A stretch of 41,712 nt of DNA from a virus. Positions 9,676 to 25,017 of this stretch are shown one piece after another (position 1 is the stretch's first letter; the number at the start of each line of letters is the position of its first letter). Under the pieces are notes generated by a model. That model worked only from the letters and a program-made list of their open reading frames with translations, did not search any database and had not been told where the DNA came from. Both the position numbers and the translations under genes were made by a program. Location of the stretch: positions 1-41,712 of IMG/VR virus record IMGVR_UViG_3300025137_005892. The stretch is one strand, 5' to 3'.

Positions 9676-10291
9676 AACTTTGAATAACCAATTCTTTGTA
9701 TTTCATTGAAGGTACTCCGTGCACAATTATATGGTACCTATCTTCCGTGCTTTTGTTAATGTAAGCATGCTCGTTGCCTACATCTAGCAGCATAGCGTCA
9801 CCAGGTGCAAAAGGTACATATCCTTTATGACCTTTCATTTTCATTTTACAACCTTCAGGGTGGCTGAGGGCTATATTGATTGGTGAAAGTCTATTTATAT
9901 CCATATCTTTATGAGGGGTGATGTATCCATCGGGGTCGAGTAACATAAATCTTAATCTATGGTATCTAGAATAAGGAAATTTGTTTTTAAAAAAATCTGT
10001 AGTTACTGGGCATAGTTCTGATATTTCTGTCCATTTATAGGGAGCTTCGTCATTACTTTTAAAACCATAATTAACAAAATGATTAGTTTTAGTTGCTGAG
10101 AGACCATGTATACATAAACTTCTCCAACCTTTATGCGAGTAGCCTCCCCCGCCGTCAGCAGTTCTATGACCTACAAACATATCTTTTAGTTTACTTGCCT
10201 CTGCTAACATTTCTTGATGAGGTATATCTATATCAAGTTTCAACCATGGTAGCTTGCTTTTATGTATTACCCAATCGTATGTTGTTTTCAC
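9653..10291 (-). CDS. Aspartyl/asparaginyl beta-hydroxylase-like oxygenase
   Basis: A 212-aa protein. The double-stranded beta-helix motifs are clear: H127-x-D129 (ITPHKDMD), H175 (VGNEHAYINKS) and R185 (DRYHIIVHG), with SPINIALSHPEGCKMK between. This matches the Asp/Asn beta-hydroxylase group of Fe(II)/2OG oxygenases; its target is unknown. It overlaps the A-type Fe-S carrier gene by 4 nt (ATGA). Confidence 0.8.
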   Translation of the reverse strand: MKTTYDWVIHKSKLPWLKLDIDIPHQEMLAEASKLKDMFVGHRTADGGGGYSHKGWRSLCIHGLSATKTNHFVNYGFKSNDEAPYKWTEISELCPVTTDFFKNKFPYSRYHRLRFMLLDPDGYITPHKDMDINRLSPINIALSHPEGCKMKMKGHKGYVPFAPGDAMLLDVGNEHAYINKSTEDRYHIIVHGVPSMKYKELVIQSYEKNGSK

Positions 10292-10707
10292 TTATAATCC
10301 ATGTACATTTCTAATAAATCAGGGTCAAAATTAAAACTAGTCCCACAACCGCAACTCATTCTAGCTCCTGGGTTTACTACTTTTAATAGTCTATTCATAC
10401 CTGCGTCTTCTAGATCAATCTCTGCACCATACAAAAACATGATACTTTCTTTATCTGTAAGTGCGCGAGGATTTTCGCTAAAAATAATATCTGAGTCCTC
10501 CGCAGTATCTGCAATATCAAAAGAATACTGGAAACCCCCACAACCTCCGCCATCGACAGCAAATTTAAAGTATTGCCCTTGTTTTAAGTTCTCACTTATA
10601 TACACTGCAGCTTTATTTGTGATTGTAGGTAGTTTTCCATGTAAATTTTTATCTATCGTTGGCGCATTACCATGGAAATCGCGTAATACTTTTTCCTGAA
10701 GATCCAC
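10288..10707 (-). CDS. A-type iron-sulfur cluster carrier (IscA/ErpA/HesB family)
   Basis: A 139-aa protein. Residues about 28-135 carry the A-type carrier fold, with the three conserved cysteines C56 (GGGCGGFQY), C119 and C121 (SCGCGTSF). Family members bind [2Fe-2S] or [4Fe-4S] clusters and deliver them to apo-enzymes. An N-terminal extension of about 25 residues is unusual. HesB/IscA-like genes are known from marine myophages. Likely clients in this window are the three radical-SAM enzymes. Confidence 0.9.
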   Translation of the reverse strand: MDLQEKVLRDFHGNAPTIDKNLHGKLPTITNKAAVYISENLKQGQYFKFAVDGGGCGGFQYSFDIADTAEDSDIIFSENPRALTDKESIMFLYGAEIDLEDAGMNRLLKVVNPGARMSCGCGTSFNFDPDLLEMYMDYK

Positions 10708-22966: not shown

Positions 22967-23260
22967 CTAGTAATAAGGGTTGTTAAAATTAGGGTCATCC
23001 ATGCCATCAACTGCTGTTACTTCTGGGATATAATGTTTAAGCATTTGCTCTATACCCATTTTTAAAGTAGCAGAGGACATTTGGCAACCACTACAACTGC
23101 CTTGCAATAACACAAGCACACGGCCTGACTCCATATCAAAATCCTGTAGTTGTATGAACCCACCATGACCTGCTACTGCAGGTTGCACGTAATCGGTAAT
23201 TATGTGATCTATTTGCTTCATAATTTCTTCTTTTTGTCTTGGCATAGTTTTTGAACACAC
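22967..23260 (-). CDS. Nfu-type Fe-S cluster scaffold domain protein
   Basis: A 97-aa protein that is almost a bare NifU C-terminal domain: VQPAVAGHGGFIQLQDF, then LLQGSCSGCQMSSATLKMGI with the cluster-binding C56-x-x-C59, and a C-terminal EVTAVDGMDDP. Nfu domains bind and transfer [4Fe-4S] clusters. The ATG at 23260 and one at 23221 are both possible. It lies between the sugar operon and the tmRNA, and is the second Fe-S delivery factor in this window. Confidence 0.9.
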   Translation of the reverse strand: MCSKTMPRQKEEIMKQIDHIITDYVQPAVAGHGGFIQLQDFDMESGRVLVLLQGSCSGCQMSSATLKMGIEQMLKHYIPEVTAVDGMDDPNFNNPYY

Positions 23261-23536
23261 ATTTCTCCGAAAAGTTTAGGGGGTGACAAATCCCCTGATT
23301 TGATGTCAAGACAGAACTATTTTAGTTCCCTCGTGCTTCCAGCCCGTTCTGTCGTGTAGGTAATTTTACGCTCTTATACCGAGTCTACCTTAACTTCATG
23401 GTAGCCCACCTACGTCGCCACACCCCGTAGAGTGTACACGCGAATCCTGGTTTTTTGTAAGCAATGTTGCAACATATACTTACCTCAGGAAATCAGTGAG
23501 GGATTCTGTTTCCACGCTCCCTCGGGCGCATAAGAA

Positions 23537-23581
23537 TTAAGCGGCTAGCGCTAACTCTTGAGGTGCAAAATTATCGTTTGC
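23537..23581 (-). other. tmRNA proteolysis-tag reading frame
   Basis: GCA at 23581-23579 opens a frame reading A-N-D-N-F-A-P-Q-E-L-A-L-A-A and ending in TAA at 23539-23537. The AND start and LALAA end are the hallmarks of ssrA tags recognised by ClpXP-type proteases. The tag is longer than the E. coli ANDENYALAA and carries a PQE insert. Confidence 0.9.
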
Positions 23582-23666
23582 ATTTATTAATATCTTGCGA
23601 TTAAGGTCGCTTGCGCACCTGCTTCTCGAATCAGTTTTATTCATCTGTCGATCCTATTTCAGCCCC

Positions 23667-23716
23667 ATGAGAAACACTCGCAAGCAGTGATTCAATATCT
23701 CATCTACGAGTGTTTA
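23667..23716 (-). other. Internal transcribed spacer of the permuted tmRNA
   Basis: The 50 nt between the encoded CCA (23717) and the GGGG start of the coding piece (23666). Its ends form a 9-bp helix, AAACACTCG with CGAGTGTTT, which would bring the two mature ends together and is expected to be excised when the tmRNA is processed into two pieces. Confidence 0.8.
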
Positions 23717-23782
23717 TGGTGGAGCTGATGGGTACTGCCCCCATGTCCAGTCTGCTTTATTATCTTCATCTCAATCAAAGCA

Positions 23783-24247
23783 CTAATTTATATGTAGTTG
23801 TATTGAATATCTGTTTATATTACTATCATTTTGAGTTCTATGCAAGATATTTGTTGTAATATATGTAGGTCCTTCATACTTAAAAGAAAAATTTTCATAA
23901 ATAATAGTTCCTTTATTGTTTCCAATAGGTATGAGTAATGCTTTTTTTCTTTTATAGTCTTTATGCCAAGGCAACCCACCTTGAGGTATTGTTTTTGTGA
24001 TATGTGATTTTTTTGGATCAAATTTTATATCTTTTAGTTGAGGTATAGCTTTTAATATAGTGTCTTGATGCTTACTAAATCGTAAACTAAATACTCCTAT
24101 AGGAGAAGACTTACCCCAATCTATTGATGTTATTGTTTTGTCTTTTGCGTAGTTTTTAAAATTCCAACCAAACCATTTAAGGTTTAAGTCAGTTATTTCA
24201 TTTAATATTGTTTCGTGGTCTACTTCTAAATTAATTTTTTGTAGCAT
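23783..24247 (-). CDS. Small 2OG-Fe(II) oxygenase-like protein
   Basis: About 154 aa from the ATG at 24247; an ATG at 24283 is in frame but overlaps the upstream gene by over 50 nt. LPWHKDYKRKKALLIPIG gives H-x-D, GPTYITTNILHRTQND the distal His and NRYSIQLHI the 2OG-binding Arg. It is a minimal version of the fold with an unknown substrate. It ends immediately before the tmRNA acceptor piece, so the two may share a transcript. Confidence 0.62.
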   Translation of the reverse strand: MLQKINLEVDHETILNEITDLNLKWFGWNFKNYAKDKTITSIDWGKSSPIGVFSLRFSKHQDTILKAIPQLKDIKFDPKKSHITKTIPQGGLPWHKDYKRKKALLIPIGNNKGTIIYENFSFKYEGPTYITTNILHRTQNDSNINRYSIQLHIN

Positions 24248-24464
24248 TATAAAACTTATGTAGTGCGTAAAACCAAAAACCATTTATAATTGGTTCTACA
24301 AGGGCATCAATTGCTGCTAACTCTAGGTTTGCGCCTGTAATTATGTAATTACAAGTCATGGCTATAACAATATGACCTACTGTGTATATGACTGCTAGTG
24401 CTGCACTAGAATGTCCTACTATACCTTTTAACGCGTTATATGCGCCTGAAGTAAATTCTGTCAT
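24231..24464 (-). CDS. DUF2061-like small membrane protein
   Basis: A 77-aa protein with two hydrophobic segments (SSAALAVIYTVGHIVIAMTC and an amphipathic NGFWFYALHKFYN). The pattern of two membrane spans with an intervening ELAAIDALVEPI helix and an aromatic C-terminus fits DUF2061 proteins seen in marine phages. Function unknown. ATGA overlap with the upstream 81-aa gene. Confidence 0.65.
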   Translation of the reverse strand: MTEFTSGAYNALKGIVGHSSAALAVIYTVGHIVIAMTCNYIITGANLELAAIDALVEPIINGFWFYALHKFYNATKN

Positions 24465-24706
24465 GTAAATAATCCTTCGTCTATATCTAGTTCGTTAACT
24501 TCTTCTTTAGTGTTATGATTAAAAACTCTAAAACTATCAGCTTCTAAATCCCACACTAACTCCATGCCGTTTGGGTATTTTTGTTCTTTACCCGCTCCCA
24601 GTATTTTTGTAGCTACAAACTTTTGTGGTAAATCATCGATCCTAGCAAAAACCATATGTCTTGTAGAACCATCTTTTTTCTTAAATACACCTTTGTATGC
24701 TTTCAT
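24461..24706 (-). CDS. Small phage protein, possibly SH3-like
   Basis: An 81-aa beta-rich protein: MKAYKGVFKKKDGSTRHMVF, then ELVWDLEADSFRVFNHNT. It resembles small phage proteins annotated as WYL_2/DUF2693 with an SH3-like barrel; I am not certain. A clear AGGAG ribosome site precedes the ATG. Confidence 0.6.
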   Translation of the reverse strand: MKAYKGVFKKKDGSTRHMVFARIDDLPQKFVATKILGAGKEQKYPNGMELVWDLEADSFRVFNHNTKEEVNELDIDEGLFT

Positions 24707-24741: not shown

Positions 24742-25017
24742 TTAACGTTTCTGCAAACGTGAAGTGGATTTACCTCGTCTCTTGTTCTTATTGTTTCGTA
24801 TCTGATTGCGTTCTTCTCTTACAAACTGTTTTTCAAGTTTTTCTCGTTTTTTCTTCCAACGCATAGCTCCTGCTTTAGCATCTTTTCTAGATGCTTCACC
24901 TTTTGATACAAATGCTCGTCTATCTCGGACTTCTTTTAGAACTCCTTCATCGTGTAGTTTCCTATTAAGCAGTTTATATGCTTTTGAAACATCGTTATTT
25001 TTTACTATAATTTTCAT
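24742..25017 (-). CDS. rpsU: Ribosomal protein bS21 homologue
   Basis: A 91-aa, very basic protein. MKIIVKNNDVSKAYKLLNRK and GVLKEVRDRRAFVSKGEASR match bS21 over the first 45-60 residues; the rest is a lysine/arginine-rich tail longer than in most bacterial bS21 (about 60-70 aa). bS21 sits at the mRNA exit of the 30S subunit and affects initiation. Phage bS21 proteins have been described, including in SAR11 phages; exchange onto host ribosomes is a proposed role. The gene lies close to the phage tmRNA. Confidence 0.85.
   Translation of the reverse strand: MKIIVKNNDVSKAYKLLNRKLHDEGVLKEVRDRRAFVSKGEASRKDAKAGAMRWKKKREKLEKQFVREERNQIRNNKNKRRGKSTSRLQKR

Follow-up and report, generated by a model that had tools for sequence, protein, structure and literature searches.

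A two-piece tmRNA gene in a T5-like phage, a conserved pseudoknotted RNA behind it, and small protein genes in the spacers of its relatives

The stretch of DNA analysed here (hereafter, the window) comprises the 41,712 nucleotides of the IMG/VR virus record IMGVR_UViG_3300025137_005892, and on its minus strand, from 23782 to about 23495, it carries an intact circularly permuted, i.e. two-piece, tmRNA gene of the alphaproteobacterial type. In cmscan searches, the gene matches the full Rfam model RF01849 (alpha_tmRNA) at 125.5 bits (E 5.3e-34, 23838-23495) and the full model RF04321 (tmRNA_permuted) at 115.7 bits (23782-23537), the gathering cut-offs being 50 and 47 bits, respectively, and the models, as used, being without pairs for the pseudoknots of the coding piece. 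Scores of this size exclude a chance match. An earlier note, made from the letters of the sequence, had placed a phage-encoded tmRNA here and had named RF01849 and ARAGORN as the programs and models with which to check it. The covariance check passes, given the strength of the RF01849 match, while the ARAGORN check fails: the program made no call for the window tmRNA in its default mode or in most of the other modes tried. In the order of the minus strand, the features of the locus are as follows:

24742-25017, minus strand: phage ribosomal protein bS21, 91 aa (PF01165, E 1.7e-9, above cut-off)
24461-24706, minus strand: WYL_2-like small protein, assigned from a weak PF10902 match below cut-off and from synteny
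23783-24283, minus strand: gene of 166 aa without a family assignment, located just before the tmRNA; its stop directly adjoins the acceptor piece
23717-23782, minus strand: acceptor piece, with the 5' part of the tRNA-like domain, T arm, acceptor 3' strand and CCA (RF04321 match from 23782; RF01849)
23744-23728, minus strand: T arm
23727-23717, minus strand: acceptor 3' strand with encoded CCA, CAGCTCCACCA
23667-23716, minus strand: spacer, predicted to be excised, 50 nt, hairpin AAACACTCG/CGAGTGTTT
23495-23666, minus strand: coding piece, beginning with GGGGCTGA at 23666; the RF01849 match stops at 23495
23666-23660, minus strand: acceptor 5' strand GGGGCUG, the first 7 nt of the coding piece
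23581-23537, minus strand: tag frame GCA AAC GAT to GCT TAA, encoding ANDNFAPQELALAA and a stop, with LALAA at its end
23523-23497, minus strand: hairpin GAGGGA/UCCCUC near the end of the coding piece
23445-23492, minus strand: 5' hairpin P0 of an unnamed RNA element, UCCUG/CAGGA enclosing GUAAG/CUUAC
23308-23445, minus strand: core of this element, 138 nt, with P1, P2 (GUAGGU/ACCUAC), P3 (CUACC/GGUAG), P5 (GACAGAAC/GUUCUGUC) and a pseudoknot CGUGU/GCACG
23278-23296, minus strand: small hairpin between element and nfu, AGGGG-loop-CCCCT (L074, L098 and L100 have comparable hairpins whose stems differ in sequence)
22967-23260, minus strand: NifU C-terminal (Nfu-type) protein, 97 aa, the gene behind the element (PF01106, E 2.5e-23)

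The acceptor piece (23782-23717), the spacer (23716-23667) and the coding piece (from 23666) follow one another in the permuted order. All seven pairs of the acceptor stem can form, GGGGCUG with CAGCUCC, after which come A and CCA, and both G3-U70 and A73 are present, these features in front of CCA being the alanine identity set known for tmRNA. The T stem has five of five pairs and encloses the loop GGCAGTA. The earlier note had described an acceptor end, a hairpin spacer of 50 nt, a coding piece whose start pairs with the acceptor end, and a tag frame running from GCA-AAC-GAT to LALAA and a stop. All of these were found, the spacer being exactly 50 nt long and folding as a hairpin, and the first seven nucleotides of the coding piece pairing in full. 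The spacer hairpin is kept in relatives, in one of which (L010) a compensating change has turned it into ATACACTCG/CGAGTGTAT, and the tag ANDNFAPQELALAA is identical in L101 and L169. What has to be redrawn is the extent of the gene. Namely, of the interval 23281-23782, which had been given to the tmRNA as a whole, the part from 23782 to about 23495 is indeed tmRNA, but 23281-23494 holds another structured RNA and a small hairpin.

As for the phage itself, a marine one, the nearest counterparts of three of its proteins (replication helicase, NAD-dependent ligase and D5-like regulator) belong to T5-like phages, at about 30% identity, and an assignment to the T4-like phages was dropped because these three proteins point to the T5-like ones. 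Together with the RF01849 and RF04321 matches, such genes back the claim that the tmRNA is phage-encoded, permuted, in two pieces and of alphaproteobacterial affinity. Since the stop at 23783 abuts the acceptor piece, the 166-aa gene and the tmRNA are probably co-transcribed; on the other side, the NifU-domain gene begins about 230 nt after the tmRNA. The bS21 gene lies about 1 kb upstream of the tmRNA, and the order bS21, WYL_2-like protein, tmRNA, often followed by a hexapeptide transferase, recurs in seven contigs (L013, L032, L049, L063, L084, L085 and L101), with a distance between bS21 and tmRNA of 0.6 to 2 kb in the four of them that were measured. No SmpB was found in the window or in 15 related records, mostly fragments, in a search that was positive for 10 of 14 control genomes, and the phage tmRNA therefore probably works with the SmpB of the host. 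Two side observations may be added here. Among 16 tmRNA- or element-bearing phage records searched, bS21 was found in eight, and it is kept near the tmRNA in the T5-like lineage. The window also encodes two iron-sulphur cluster assembly proteins, one of the Fe-S_biosyn/IscA type (10288-10707) and the Nfu-type one at 22967-23260.

A pattern scan of IMG/VR for the permuted arrangement with a short spacer gave 94 contig stretches and two further scans for long spacers gave 30, and the number of distinct phage two-piece tmRNAs found is 97, mostly from IMG/VR contigs. The acceptor stem has seven of seven pairs in all 97, pairs 1-4 being uninformative because the search pattern requires them, and the T stem has five of five in 96; several pair types occur at positions 1-3 of the T stem and at acceptor position 5. 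The T loop GGCAGTA is common to the window and 43 of the 97, and in 44 of the 53 distinct short spacers the fold is better than that of the shuffled copies by over one standard deviation. The tags differ in mid-sequence, while the start ANDNF is mostly kept and the end AA nearly always. With RF01849, intact phage copies score about 71-142 bits, as against mostly 195-312 bits for cellular alphaproteobacterial tmRNAs; in other words, the phage tmRNAs have diverged.

Some individual copies deserve separate mention. Many phages have tags with AQAA or RLAA at the end in place of ALAA (L006, L021, L038, L046, L020, L013 and others), which might alter their recognition by host proteases. In L100, the tmRNA (coding piece at 1628, minus strand) is degenerate, scoring 46.8 bits, below the RF01849 cut-off; its resume codon GCA has apparently become GTA (VNDNVSPKDIALVA) and its start is altered (GGGGCTGAAACAGAATCGAC), and it still has an open reading frame in its spacer and the 3' element. 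Finally, scaffold38 of Labrenzia sp. OB1 carries (L113, 2820-3155) a second, diverged permuted tmRNA of 129 bits with the apparent tag ANTKAVVADNDNDWVAAKAVA; the other tmRNA of this assembly scores 302 bits, and the diverged copy is perhaps on a mobile element.

Behind the window tmRNA, the region 23494-23308 folds better than its shuffles (z -2.6), and the element within it has no match in Rfam even at E 10, apart from chance-level matches to other families. The element occurs in 16 phage contigs as eight distinct core types, six of the contigs beyond the window having been found by exact patterns and nine more by a relaxed pattern. In the alignment, 10 of 27 pairs are changed on both sides and 95.8% of the cells pair, these counts being lowered, not raised, by the fact that alignment A4 misplaces one helix each of L137 and L102 by about one base. 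The observed values for paired cells, double changes and covariation score are each out of reach of all 500 shuffles, and the pairing falls to 33-42% when the partner is shifted by 1-3 columns. The pseudoknot is paired in 100% of cases, as CGUGU/GCACG in five types and as CAGGC/GCCUG in three, and the P0 stem is kept with changed sequence in L099, L101 and L102. A BLAST search of the element against phage and plasmid records gave no match, the pattern GTAGACTCGNTATAAGANCG gave none in 84,980 species genomes, and the model R2 reached at best 22.7 bits (E 0.002 per genome), about chance level, in 289 alphaproteobacterial genomes; there is no convincing copy of the element in the cellular genomes searched. 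The ten loci L103-L112, which came from the patterns AGACTCGNTATAAGARCG and GACGTAGGTGGGCTA, are unrelated. Two of the contigs show further folding around the element. In L101, an apparently folded stretch lies on the minus strand near 4930-4800, between tmRNA end and element, with no Rfam match at gathering score, and in L102 the region behind the element (200-480) is a cluster of small RNAs, in which a long hairpin and tRNA-Trp are accompanied by another stretch that appears to be folded and has a T run at its end.

A permuted tmRNA lies directly 5' of the element in 14 of the 15 contigs that have upstream DNA (the exception is L102; in L138 the record starts with the element itself), while the downstream genes vary: nfu, gp33-like, GMP-reductase-like and others, the names except nfu being assigned by eye. 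Such a constant neighbour in front and such changing ones behind would suit an enlarged tmRNA coding piece, with 23494-23308 as its extra helices and pseudoknot, and so would the comparison of the window with L074, which are near-identical from the tag to the end of the element and differ in the tRNA-like part, meaning that this block has moved together. We consider an enlarged coding piece unlikely, however, since in 34 related loci the tmRNA end is separated by 6-34 nt from the next open reading frame, a protein gene, which leaves no room for it, and since other phages have known RNAs in the same slot, namely the glutamine riboswitch (RF01739) in the phage Melnitz (L003) and the manA RNA (RF01745) in L016 and L047. 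Moreover, about 130 nt separate tmRNA and element in L101, and in L102 the element is preceded by some 35 nt without a tmRNA end and followed by tRNA-Trp. Taken together, the adjacency to the tmRNA, the differing genes behind, the 34 loci without room and the slot-mates indicate that the element forms an RNA domain of its own, placed in a slot downstream of the tmRNA. Like it, the glutamine riboswitch and the manA RNA are structured RNAs in the slot behind phage two-piece tmRNAs, but the element of the window gives no match to either and is set apart by a conserved sequence and a pseudoknot of its own; a relationship to either was rejected, as no covariance match was obtained, while the same type of search finds both in L003 and L016. 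Most likely, this separate domain serves the tmRNA transcript in cis, as a control element or at its 3' end. The chance that it is a 3'-end or stability domain of that transcript (e.g. a terminator or a fold that resists nucleases), as opposed to a switch for the downstream gene, is, in our estimate, appreciable although somewhat under one half. The element tracks the upstream tmRNA and not any one downstream gene, the L137 and L141 types have a T run after their final stem, and in L102 the element adjoins a tRNA gene; against this, the last stem is followed by no T run in the window, L074, L099 and L101, and both slot-mates are thought to be cis-regulatory (PMC9004378, PMC2864571), for which reason we lean slightly towards a switch for the gene behind.

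It is our belief, with a probability of roughly 0.85, that the window carries a functional phage ssrA in the permuted two-piece form and, behind it, a separate conserved pseudoknotted RNA of an undescribed family. The order of the pieces, the stems and the tag are directly visible in the DNA and are conserved across phages; from them we infer transcription, cleavage, charging, tagging and, with the SmpB of the host, ribosome rescue. A single transcript would run from the acceptor piece through the hairpin spacer into the coding piece and, as the 3' element is on the same strand, would probably include the latter as well. The tRNA-processing enzymes of the host would excise the spacer, with RNase P acting at G1 of GGGG and 3' processing at the encoded CCA, and leave two RNAs joined by the acceptor stem. 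The host AlaRS could then charge the molecule via G3-U70 and A73, and host SmpB would deliver it to ribosomes that have stalled on a broken mRNA. There, the unfinished chain would be extended by A-ANDNFAPQELALAA, a tag of the ClpXP type with LAA at its end. Could the phage tmRNA instead be a decoy, blocking host trans-translation by binding SmpB? This has been reported for the tag-less tmRNA of mycobacteriophage DS6A, which carries little beyond a tRNA-like domain, a kind of molecule that inhibits tmRNA (PMC4131195, PMC11915505). The window tmRNA, in contrast, keeps its resume codon, an open tag frame and the LAA end, and the tags of its relatives, varying in the middle and mostly or nearly always conserved at start and end, respectively, look as expected for working tags, so that a decoy seems very unlikely to us. 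Even less credible, to the point of being barely worth entertaining, is a captured host gene decaying without function. Phages can acquire host ssrA sequence (PMC9004378), and the degenerate copy in L100, at 46.8 bits and below the cut-off, is what such decay could look like, but all stems of the window tmRNA are intact, there are 97 distinct phage copies with compensatory changes, and the neighbourhood is conserved in related phages. As to its role, the earlier note had proposed rescue on degraded host mRNA, replacement of the host tmRNA or a changed fate of the tagged proteins, any of which may apply as far as the sequence goes.

Relatives of this ssrA with long spacers differ from it in what they carry between acceptor and coding piece. 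While the window spacer contains no open reading frame, 20 of the 22 distinct spacers of at least 60 nt carry a small protein frame (loci L003, L098, L100, L101, L146-L151 and L154-L173, with L152 and L153 excluded). These frames start with ATG 4-21 nt after CCA, are 39-76 codons long and end no more than 15 nt upstream or 45 nt downstream of the point where the coding piece begins, and for 18 of the 20 such a frame occurs in fewer than 5% of shuffled spacers. They are flanked by intact acceptor and T stems. They belong to 13 unrelated families, one of which is Pfam DUF6356 (E 5e-12); one is also found by itself in a dozen or more other contigs, and other families have relatives outside spacers in L069, L021, L044 and L150. 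In six related pairs, the changes are concentrated at third codon positions, with dN/dS of about 0.02 to 0.21, i.e. the spacer frames are under purifying selection where pairs exist. In Melnitz, the frame (L003, 8054-8215; MFKWLSKTRLVV..., 54 codons, with GGAG in front) underlies the annotated SsrA feature, and MZ577097 lists no CDS there. The idea that cellular long spacers contain genes too was dropped, as L174 and L175 are without an ATG-started frame across the spacer. In about five of the 13 families, the frame crosses the expected RNase P site, and maturation of the tmRNA would therefore remove its stop codon. According to PMC10107115, the arfA mRNA lacks a stop and is repressed by trans-translation. 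By analogy, the message of a spacer frame might itself become a substrate of the tmRNA in an arfA-like feedback, which is a guess, albeit a testable one. A limited literature search, with one wording, on the intervening segment of permuted tmRNAs gave no paper, and we came across no report of protein genes in a tmRNA precursor.

Phage two-piece tmRNAs as such are already known; what is new is the RNA family behind the tmRNA and the genes nested in the spacers of relatives. One may go further and suggest, at what we would call even odds, that the ssrA loci of marine phages are RNA genes of composite build, with two slots whose contents can be exchanged. Behind the coding piece, there would be a slot for cis-acting RNAs, including the new pseudoknotted family; in many relatives, the spacer would hold a complete small protein gene, and where its frame runs past the RNase P site, as in about five of the 13 families, the stop would be cut off and the message turned into a tmRNA substrate, closing a possible arfA-like loop of self-control. 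Phage two-piece tmRNAs are known yet unexplained, and this locus offers three handles on them: the conserved pairing of tmRNA with bS21, which points to translation being taken over; a structured RNA of a new kind with a fixed place after the tmRNA; and genes nested in the tmRNA precursor, that of the cultured phage Melnitz included, which make the control of a message by tmRNA processing directly testable.

The tmRNAs of the mycobacteriophage Bxz1 group and of Bacillus phage G, which are phage-borne ssrA like that of the window, are probably one-piece and of another lineage. They have been listed as phage-borne ssrA before (PMC4131195), and a tmRNA database of 2025 contains 79 phage sequences, all forms together (PMC11915505). 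With respect to the two-piece form, the statement of the earlier note that no well-studied phage-borne example was known is outdated, since a two-piece ssrA followed by a glutamine riboswitch was published in 2022 for Melnitz (EXVC044M; MZ577097), and the same paper counted 53 two-piece structures across phage genomes, of which marine or aquatic phages account for 50 (PMC9004378). The observation made in that note is thus confirmed and its main interpretation holds, its reading being supported in part, and the kind of gene is one already known. Melnitz resembles the window in having a phage-encoded, permuted tmRNA of the alphaproteobacterial type; the acceptor regions share 92% identity over 48 nt, and Melnitz, too, encodes bS21 and has a structured RNA in its 3' slot. 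In contrast, it is T4-like whereas the window phage is T5-like, its 3' slot holds the glutamine riboswitch in place of the unnamed RNA, and its spacer contains a small frame in place of a 50-nt hairpin. With the alphaproteobacterial two-piece tmRNAs described by RF01849 and RF04321, the window shares the gene order, the acceptor stem, the T loop GGCRGTA, the motif GGGG(N)TGAAATAGGATCGAC, the start of the tag and the 3' hairpin with AACAGAA. It differs from their cellular members in its lower score, and its tag ANDNFAPQELALAA is longer than, e.g., the ANDNEMALAA of two small AT-rich alphaproteobacterial genomes (L117, L118).
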